Source: Cliona cf. orientalis
Lineage: Eukaryota; Porifera; Demospongiae; Clionaida; Clionaidae
NCBI GenBank assembly: GCA_963930775.1
Contig: OZ005700.1
Location: 6,272,609 to 6,336,608, forward strand
DNA length: 64,000 nucleotides
Direction: 5' to 3'
The position numbers and the translations under genes are program-made. Below the pieces are notes generated by a model that saw nothing but the letters and a program-made list of their open reading frames with translations, made no database searches and was not told where the DNA came from. Of this stretch, positions 19,619 through 61,284 are shown piece after piece; within the stretch, counting starts at the first letter, position 1, and every line of letters begins with the position of its first letter.

Positions 19619-22600
19619 CTATACTGTGCGTCTACATATTCTTTCAGTTTCAATGTCTGTGGCTATCCCTACTTGACCCTCTCTCTCCAGAGCCTCGATC
19701 AGGGTCTTCCATGTTGGATCATTAGTGACATTTTTTTCTTTCCTCAGCCATGCAGCCACCATATCGCCAGGGAGATGCTTCATCCTCTGCAGACGAGTAT
19801 AGGACAGACCAAGAGCTCCACCCAAATCCATGATTTGATCATTGTTCAGTGATTGGAGGCAGGAACACACTTCAAAATGATCTGAGTCAATGCCTGCCAA
19901 TATTTTTGACGTGTGCATACATTGTAACAAGAAGTATCGGTATGATTCAGGCTATTGTCTCTTATCACCTAGCTAGCTAGCTAGCTATAAGAGTGCATAA
20001 AGAGAAAAGAAGTGGAGGGTCTTTTCATTCAAATTCATCATGCTTTGTAGGCTGCTAAGCTTTAGCCTTCCACTCACTCAGTTTTCTCTCCATATTCCGA
20101 CTGGCTAAGGATGGCCCAGCTGTGGATGACGCATGACCAGCAGTAGAATATTCAGATTCTAGTCTACTTCGCTTTGTGGGAGAGGGACCTTGAGAATATG
20201 CAGGATGGGGCAAGGCACAATAAGTATTAATTTAATAGTATGGCAACAAGAAACATCTATGGCCACACTTGCAATAATAATTATAGGGATAGTTATACAG
20301 TATTACCTATGGCATCCAATTCTCCAACTTGTATTTGAGTGGCTTGACCCAGTGAGGTCGGATCTGAGTAGTAACAATATTATGTAAGCTATGTAAGAAG
20401 CTGTCAGAAAGTTAGGTTAGTTTCAGCAACTGCATGGTTTAACTTTGTAGCTACCTTTAGCAGGAAGATCTATTATGAAGATATCGTGAGGGTATTTTGC
20501 TCCATAGAGTTTGAAACCTTTTTTGCTCTTTCGGAGACTTCAGCCTTCAATTGGCAATGTGGAGTCACTTTACCCCCTGTAAAGCTATCCACATACTTCT
20601 TGGTCACCTACAAGATTGTTTCCAGCAATGGAAAAGAATAGGGGGGACAAGGGCCTCGTGCTACATCTAACTCACCACAGGACGCATCAGTGGAGTGATC
20701 TTCCAACCTTTAGAGATAACACCTTCCATGGGAATATCCAGCGCAGTGGCGTAGGAAGATACTCCGGTAAAGGGGTGCACTATTATCAAATTGCGCGCGG
20801 AGCGCGCGCGAAAAATCCGACCACGCCCACTTTCGATCGAAAACCCCGCCCATTTTGCATAAACGAGCAAGCAGGGGCCCTGAGCTTAGCTACTTTGTTA
20901 TGTTATGAGATATTTTAGTCAGGTTTGGCCTAAGCTGAGGAGGCAGCAGTCTTTGGGCCACTCCTTTCCAGTATGCAGCTGTAGGCGCCTTCTGTGTGCC
21001 TTTCTTTCTATGGGGGTGCGCCAGCACCCGGCGCACCCATGGTTCCTACGCCACTGCAGCGTCACTGCATCTGATTCAAATTCTATTATCTGGCGTAGAC
21101 CAAGCAAAGCTTTACCGTTTCCATACTCTTCTTTGACAATCTGAGAATAAGAATCAGTTATAATGATAATAGCACTTAGTATTATGCATACAAGACTCAC
21201 AGTGAGATGTGCTTCTAAATTCCATGTCACCACAAAATAAATTTGATACGAATTAGGGTGAGCTAGATAAAAGAGTTGTGAACAGTATTCCCTATCCTCT
21301 GATCCCTCTTGCGTTATTCCAACTCCAGAGAAACTGTTTAGCTCAATGACTCCATTGGAGCTATGGTTAGTGAAGATACCTCCAGGCAGCTGTTTAAAGG
21401 AGTAGGGGAGTTGTTTCTGACAGCAAACTGCTCGAACAAAGTGTAGCTTAGTACTCTCTGGCTTAGCGCAGTGCTGAATTTCTACTGTGATTGGCCGGGT
21501 GAACTTTTTCACTGTCTCACAACGGAACCAGAAGATGGCACTGACCAGATGCGAGTTTTCAGGGAACTCATACTGGCCAGCTATGGAGACCTTGATGTTG
21601 ACGGTGCACTGCTCTATGCCTGCTGGCAGGCAGCCCGCCTGAAAGAGAAGCCTCAGACCAAAACCTGGCCATATGATTTGCTGATCATGGGAAGAATAGA
21701 TCACTGCAGACATTTCTCCACACACATCCACACAACGCAAGTTCCAGGAAGCTGTGGAAATGCACAGAACTAGCTCCATAAGTTTAAACTATGCACAGTA
21801 AATTACTAATTATATTATCCTCATCATCCTGTACTTAATCAGCTTGTGCATAGTTAAATCGAGTGGCCAATCAGATTACATCTTTCATACTAAGTTAATC
21901 AGAGCCATGATCAAAAGCGTCACCCTAACAAAACAGCTTCACCTCTAGTATGTATCGGGATACTATAATGATTATGTACTTGCATACCATCTGTTGTGAA
22001 TGCAATTGCTGGTGATAGTTGATATTTAAGTTCATCATTCTCAGAAGTCAATTCTTTGATTCTCTTTTGCATTGCATACCCTTCTCGTTTCAATTGCAAA
22101 ATGGTATCATCTCTCAAACGCAAATGCCCACCCATTTCTGCATCCCCTATATAATTTAAAAGTGCACCATAATACATACAGAACTATTGTAGGATGAAAT
22201 TTCAACTCAAGTGACGCCAAGTCCCTGAATATTTTTGATGACATATAGGTTGCAATATCTCCACTATGCAATCATTAACAACTTGCTTTTTACTGACAAA
22301 AGTATTAATTTTAATTATGAGTCTTTGCGAACCACACAATGTCATGCAGTACAACCTTAAAGTTGTTCCTCACCATCTGTTCTTCTGATCGGGGATAGAT
22401 TCTCTGTTGCTCCACTGAGGTAGGACTCTATCTGTTGGGCTAGATCACCCAGTTTGAGAACACGAAGGATGTGCAGGAGATTATTCCAAGTAGGAGACAC
22501 CTGCCACACACTTCTTACACAGTAGTTAATCAGATCAGATTCTTGGTCATGAGTCATGGGTAGCCCAAGGATGTCCTGGATGTGCTGAGTGTATATGCTC

Positions 22601-23944
22601 ATCACTGGGATAGCCTTTTCCAGGAAATCAAGAGCTTTCATGTCAAAGAAACTGTCTGGATTGAAGGATGCCACTGCAACATGAACAATTTCAAGTTTAA
22701 TATCTATCATCAGTATAAACATGCTACACTTCTGCAGAAAAGTGATTTAGCCATCTTCATGCGGTATCGATCCTAAAATAATAATCGCAGACTTACTTCG
22801 GAGCTTGATTTTGAAGACTCTTTGTCCATTAACAACCATTAGCTCGTTGGATGGGAGAGCTACAGCACAAGGAGTGGCAACATTCATTGTGATGGGAGCC
22901 TCTCCCACGTGTACCCAAGACTGTGTGGAGGAGGAGTAGACACAAAGAGATGTGGTAGTGGAATTTAATCCTCCCACTGCAATCAACATGTTTCCAAACA
23001 CAGAAGGATGGCAGAATCCAATAGGGATACTCCGTATTCTCTTCCATACTGACCGTGGTTGTGAGGTCTCCTTGGCACTGAATTGACAGCTGGCTATGAG
23101 TGAATCTAGAGAAGCAGAATACACGCAAGTTTCTTGTGGTAGACTCAGTTCAGAATTTGTTCCTCCCATCAGATACCAGCGACTGTTGAAGACAGTAGAT
23201 GTTATAAAATGCAGCAACTGAGGTGGATGTTGTATAGTTGCCCATTGACGACCATTGTATACATAAATTTTATTGTTCATGAGAGGATAATCAATTCCAA
23301 TCACGAGGAGATAGTCTCCATGACTCACAGAAGATGCACCAGGCGCTGGCAATGGTGTTGGCAGAGGCGGTAGAGTTTCCCACCATTGACCATGCTCGCT
23401 TAATGTCCACAATTTATTCCGACGTAGGTAGCCCACTGGTATACTCCCATCCACCGACTAGTACCAGCTGGGAGTGGTAAGTGGTGAGGGCAAAGTGATA
23501 TACAGGAGTATCTAGTACATCCCATGTGTCAGTGGCAGGGGTATAGACATAGAGCCTAGCTTCATCCCTTTTACTTCCAGATACTGTTCCTCCCCCTAAA
23601 TAGACCTTATTTTTCAGCCACACTGCCTGAGCTCTACCTATACACACAGGCACTTCCCTGCACTCTTGCCATTCCACTGAAGCCAAAGGATGAAGGATAT
23701 CAACCTGGATGTTAGAGATCAACATAATAATTGATTATAAAAAGATCGGGTGCAGACAACTCATGCAATTCTATTACAATTTACAGGTATTAACTCATTG
23801 GTACAATTGTCAATTCTATCTGACTGTGCACTTAGGCATACTAGTCTAAGAGTATTATAGCACTCCTTTGTCAACACAATAATTGCCAACTTCCTACTAA
23901 CTGCATGGGTATACAGAATCCATTTAGCTTACTGCTCGATCCAT
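19619..23944 (-). pseudogene. Kelch-Death-coiled coil-ZU5-Death gene, disrupted
   Basis: Ten exons on the minus strand: 23933-23944 (MDRA, tentative), 22797-23704, 22374-22673, 21988-22146, 21201-21751, 20676-21140, 20455-20607, 20307-20363, 20078-20188, 19619-19893. Without the lesions the total is 2673 nt, 890 residues. Domains: Kelch repeats (5-305; VYLGGG, VLVGG, YLMGG, IAVGG motifs), a Death-like fold (310-400), a coiled coil (410-455), ZU5 (about 480-640), and a C-terminal Death domain (about 800-885; LGGALGLSYTRLQRM). ZU5 and Death domains are adaptor modules in UNC5, PIDD and ankyrin proteins; a signalling role is inference. Lesions: one extra base in Kelch near 23411-23424, a 313-bp transposon in exon 6, and a missing base in an A6 run (20519-20524) of exon 7. 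The last could instead be a 54-nt intron with a poor acceptor. The indels may be assembly errors; the transposon is not. Confidence 0.8.
20744..21056. mobile_element. GGCGTAGGAA element 1, inserted in a coding exon, 5-bp TSD
   Basis: 313 bp with ends CAGTGGCGTAGGAA and TTCCTACGCCACTG (perfect 14-bp inverted repeats). The direct repeat CAGCG lies at 20739-20743 and 21057-21061. Removing the element and one CAGCG leaves exon 6 of the Kelch/ZU5 gene as a 147-nt, 49-codon phase-0 exon reading ESDAVTLDIPMEG across the site. The element contains GCGCGCGGAGCGCGCGC and the phrase CCACGCCCACTTT, both shared with the copy at 40409-40752. The CAGTGG start recalls hAT ends, but hAT duplications are usually 8 bp, so the superfamily is left open. 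Confidence 0.9.

Positions 23945-32960: not shown

Positions 32961-61284
<28,324 letters not shown>

Follow-up and report, generated by a model that had tools for sequence, protein, structure and literature searches.

A putative hAT5-type MITE in a coding exon of a probable young pseudogene of the Kelch/ZU5-like/Death-like family in the sponge Cliona cf. orientalis

The interrupted exon and its gene family

The window, a stretch of 64,000 nucleotides (C12:6272609-6336608) of the Cliona cf. orientalis genome, carries on its minus strand a gene that belongs to a large Kelch/ZU5-like/Death-like family. One coding exon of this gene holds a DNA transposon with its target duplication intact (Table 1). 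The domain labels proposed in the initial annotation stood in part. Kelch passes the Pfam cut-offs, whereas ZU5 and Death stay below them in the window copy, with 15.1 versus a cut-off of 21 bits and 16.8 versus 22.6 bits, respectively. ZU5 was matched by all 15 family members given, with E values up to 1 and a best value of 3.1e-7. Among the literature titles listed, none concerned a Kelch-ZU5-Death family. The 21 closest paralogues of the ZU5 exon (L040-L060) are unevenly spread, with 12 in a cluster on C11 (about 8.9-9.4 Mb), another six on C7 and a single one on each of C1, C12 and C13.

Table 1. Positions of the gene and transposon features in the window
Feature	Position	Strand	Basis or remark
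Last exon with a weak Death-domain match; open frame ends at TAG	19619..19893	-	exon ends by eye
Following exon with 19-nt deletion, frameshift	20455..20607	-	junction about 20515/20514; exon ends by eye
Interrupted exon	20676..21140	-	147 nt empty, 465 nt occupied; phase 0 at both ends; preceded by AG, followed by GT
Target site duplication CAGCG, left copy	20739..20743	.	sequence
Putative hAT5-type MITE, 313 bp	20744..21056	.	each of the three gene-sense frames has stops
Left terminal inverted repeat CAGTGGCGTAGGAA	20744..20757	+	end comparison
Right terminal inverted repeat TTCCTACGCCACTG	21043..21056	-	14/14 complementary to left CAGTGGCGTAGGAA
Target site duplication CAGCG, right copy	21057..21061	.	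sequence
Preceding exon, ZU5-like, open	21201..21751	-	translation, ZU5 match
Kelch exon with net 8-nt deletion near 23427, frameshift	22797..23704	-	exon ends by eye

The 313-bp element described in the initial annotation was recovered at the same span within the minus-strand coding exon, and CAGCG indeed occurs on both of its flanks. Inverted ends are present as proposed; they are perfect over 14 bp, longer than the 10 bp first given. Read in gene sense, the element is non-coding, with no transposase of its own. Removal of the element together with one CAGCG restores, as predicted, a stop-free exon that reads IVKEEYGNGKALLGLRQIIEFESDAVTLDIPMEGVISKGWKITPLMRPV straight through. The uninterrupted state of this exon is also seen in the paralogues. 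In 28 of 29 paralogous loci of the same genome the protein match was continuous across the insertion point, the remaining locus (L068) giving no match, and none of the 26 paralogous exons aligned at the DNA level had an insertion there. L061 and L064, which match across the site as well, are not among these 26. A search of the same genome with the protein of the neighbouring exon returned no second near-identical copy of the locus, only the window itself. The insertion, the empty exon and relatives with identical ends that bear a hAT domain make this a textbook-clean case.

The element family and its hAT-domain-bearing relatives

Relatives of the element were sought in the primary haplotype, which comprises 216.8 Mb in 149 contigs. 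A passage of PMC12639293 gives the published odCliOrie1.1 assembly as 217.17 Mb in 307 scaffolds, small pieces of which lie outside the 149 contigs searched, and states that an alternate haplotype of Cliona cf. orientalis was also deposited. The element search listed 43 matches, with the best candidates scored. Seven relatives with both ends showed 89.4-97.2% ungapped identity to the window element, the nearest being L005 at 97.2%. An internal stretch is missing from the window element, amounting to 40 nt as compared with L002, L004, L005, L006 and L008, 41 nt as compared with L007 and 31 nt as compared with L003. Both ends were found in 37 of 38 fetched copies, a count that covers both end sets and includes the two copies in the window itself. 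An exact 5-bp duplication flanked 32 of these 37 copies and was absent in five. The exact 14-mer end occurred 261 times in the genome versus once for the reversed control. The abundance of this end over its control and the recurrent 5-bp duplications therefore mean that the element is not a chance arrangement. A second MITE in the window, at 40409-40752, belongs to a sister set, with ends CATAGGCGTAGGAA and the duplication CTATA.

A search for a larger partner by the distances between partial element hits found no autonomous element, whereas a search for end pairs succeeded. Among the 100 of the 261 end sites that were listed, two convergent pairs on C1 are spaced by about 2.8 kb (18014371-18017222 and 30756771-30759561); a third close pair among the listed sites is the MITE L004 itself. 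Each 2.8-kb element encloses a match to PF05699, the hAT dimerisation domain, at 34.4 and 38.0 bits, both over the cut-off. Their ends, read as four 61-base pieces, show exact 14-bp repeats and the 5-bp duplications CTATG and GTTAC. By eye, 38 of the first 40 bases of the first 2.8-kb element recur at the gene-sense end of the MITE in the exon.

The ends of hAT elements begin with CAG, and so do those of the window element. The usual hAT target duplication is 8 bp according to a passage of PMC12730594, and families with 5-bp duplications form the hAT5 group (Kapitonov and Jurka 2007, cited there). Because the window element shares its ends with elements that enclose a hAT-domain match, and because its family makes the 5-bp duplications of the hAT5 group, we classify it as a putative non-autonomous hAT5-type MITE. 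The likeness to the hAT5 group is one of description, and the window element differs from that group in being non-coding and only 313 bp long. Mar of Drosophila is reportedly a MITE family derived from hAT elements. Such hAT-derived MITEs are likewise short and non-coding, with inverted ends, target duplications and many diverged copies; in place of the 8 bp that are usual for hAT duplications, the window family has 5 bp. None of the literature titles listed dealt with hAT MITEs in sponges. MITEs of the hAT5 type are already a known kind, of which the window element appears to be a new member, and its insertion is an ordinary one.

The window element was probably mobilised by hAT-domain-bearing elements that share its ends. 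Their transposase, of hAT type, would have acted in trans on the non-autonomous element, cutting CAGCG in a staggered way and joining the CAGTG...CACTG ends to the target by strand transfer; repair of the gaps would then have left the two copies of CAGCG. The target was a coding exon in one member of the large gene family described above.

Two minor observations concern C1. At 37.5 Mb it is unusually large, the next largest chromosome being 14.8 Mb. By a hand count, 91 of the 148 listed hAT-domain matches (150 of 230 candidates scored) fall on C1, all beyond 13.9 Mb, and this part looks like a transposon-rich arm.

Further lesions in the same gene copy

We compared the other exons of the window gene with those of its paralogues. 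The frame of the Kelch exon runs for only 106 codons in the window copy versus 303-361 codons in all but one of the 19 other paralogues that were fetched. As compared with the 18 aligned paralogues, the window exon is short by 8 nt in 16 comparisons and by 11 nt in two. Alignment ends apart, the remaining length differences are multiples of three. The deletion lies near 23427, and a stop follows close behind it. This alignment excludes L069, which is the window, and L085, which is short itself. With its Kelch frame of 121 codons, L085 may be a second broken member of the family beside the window copy. The exon that follows the insertion lacks 19 nt that are present in all 14 of the paralogues that could be aligned out of 20 given; for the other six, one exon-7 piece or both were missing from the search results. 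The other translated exon pieces of the window gene are open.

The window copy combines independent frame-breaking lesions, seen against intact relatives, with retained introns, which are features of a non-processed pseudogene. It thus looks like a young pseudogene in which the insertion is one of three lesions. Its age is suggested by the rates of change. The dN/dS of the ZU5 exon between the window and 20 paralogues is 0.23-0.35, the median over 190 paralogue pairs being 0.39. This low ratio implies constraint over most of the gene's history, followed by a loss that is either recent or specific to this haplotype. At ZU5-exon codons conserved in 80% or more of the paralogues, the private single changes of the window copy are 25 silent and 19 replacing, with no excess of replacing changes; the same count in eight of the 20 paralogues, which were the ones checked, summed to 34 silent and 40 replacing. 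There is no sign of a long period of relaxed evolution, and the pseudogene must therefore either have arisen recently or belong to this haplotype only.

Taken together, a hAT5-type MITE was very probably inserted, by a transposase acting in trans, into a gene copy that is now most likely a young pseudogene. The same copy has also lost a net 8 nt from its Kelch exon and 19 nt from the exon after the insertion, giving three independent disabling changes. The initial annotation held that the insertion should inactivate this allele. That claim assumed a working gene, and the 8-nt and 19-nt deletions coexist with the element. With two further frame-breaking deletions in the copy, the insertion need not have caused the loss of the gene.

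A less likely alternative is that the gene still worked until the element, by itself, inactivated it, and that the small deletions came later or exist only in this haplotype. The clean duplication, the perfect ends and the relative at 97.2% identity suggest a young insertion, and the dN/dS values speak for a long constrained history; against this stand the frame-breaking deletions in the Kelch exon and in the exon after the insertion, and one sequence shows no order among the three lesions. The locus thus carries a caution. One exon read alone suggested a single-hit knockout, and it was the comparison with the paralogues that exposed the two further disabling deletions. Should the three lesions segregate apart among individuals, the locus might serve to date when this member of an expanded sponge gene family was lost.

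Splicing across the element and other coding insertions

Could the element be removed from the transcript? Read-through of the element meets a stop 135 nt in. Skipping of the whole exon would keep the frame, as the exon runs from phase 0 to phase 0. The initial annotation had stated that no GT...AG pair is placed to remove the element with the frame restored. This was too strict as worded, since 24 stop-free in-frame pairs exist; none of them, however, yields the exact 147-nt exon. The pairs with both sites near the element ends would add 30 or 48 nt in frame. Splice matrices were built from the gene and its paralogues with 48 donors and 27 acceptors, the donor set leaning strong because a GTRAG rule selected the post-ZU5 donors and a non-GT donor (L065) was dropped. 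Against this set the best candidate donor scored 2.6 bits, below the weakest of the 48 family donors (4.6 bits). The best candidate acceptor scored 4.4 bits, and some candidates fall inside the real range of -0.5 to 19.5. Splicing would thus probably not rescue the transcript, and the gene is likely dead in this individual.

Other copies of the family also lie in coding frames. L004 is inserted in an ANF_receptor frame (E 6.7e-21) and L012 in a Death frame (E 7.1e-6), while L020 lies in a Helicase_C-like frame with an E value of 0.002 that is below the cut-off. All three have exact 5-bp duplications, and their frames read through the empty site. Coding insertions thus number at least four among the 36 copies examined, the window copy included, as only long frames were screened. 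The 36 are the 38 fetched copies minus L013 and L003, which a stricter end pattern removed, though L003 still shows a 5-bp duplication. In gene-sense orientation the window copy lies one way and L004, L012 and L020 the other. When the frames across the empty sites of the 36 copies were compared with random flank positions, none stood out as open, by a control so blunt that the coding site of the window itself gave 0.31. The protein-family scan covered all 27 non-window long frames plus L005. Apart from L004, L012 and L020, none of the 27 frames had a match over the cut-off; those to Late_protein_L2 in L007 (E 0.0084) and to YesK in L036 (E 0.043) are both below it and were taken as chance. L005 has Chlam_PMP repeats over the cut-off, yet its junction lies six codons from the end of the frame, and it was left uncounted.

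Three of the four coding hits of the family are in receptor-like or Death-type genes. That the hAT5 MITE family settles in coding exons without strong purging, and that cryptic splice sites at its ends occasionally supply new introns or variants to expanded sponge gene families, is a speculative and improbable extension of these data. In some of the hit genes the transcript would then shed most of the element in frame, for which L012 offers an option that adds 9 nt and the window copy the one that adds 30 nt.

Still less probable is that splicing takes the element out of the mRNA like an intron and that its family acts as introners. A passage of PMC9860276 describes introners that have inverted ends and duplications, of which some add 12 nt; like them, the window element is a non-autonomous DNA element with inverted ends and a duplication, and it interrupts a coding exon in an organism that lives in water. 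The 24 in-frame stop-free pairs, among them the two near the element ends, and the four coding insertions would fit such a role. The window element differs, however, in having neither consistent splice sites nor an exact removal. Its candidate donors are weaker than all family donors, no splice-site layout is shared among the four coding insertions, L020 has no usable GT-AG pair near the element ends, and the window gene is broken elsewhere anyway. As neither exact removal from the window exon nor a splice layout shared by the four coding insertions was found, we rejected the introner reading of the family as unlikely.

It is equally improbable that the gene is an assembly composite in which the deletions or the element are artefacts: although the analysis rests on a single assembly, an exact 5-bp duplication around an element of a known family would be unexpected from misassembly, the 8-nt and 19-nt deletions are not homopolymer slips, and a passage of PMC12639293 gives the primary consensus a QV of 58.
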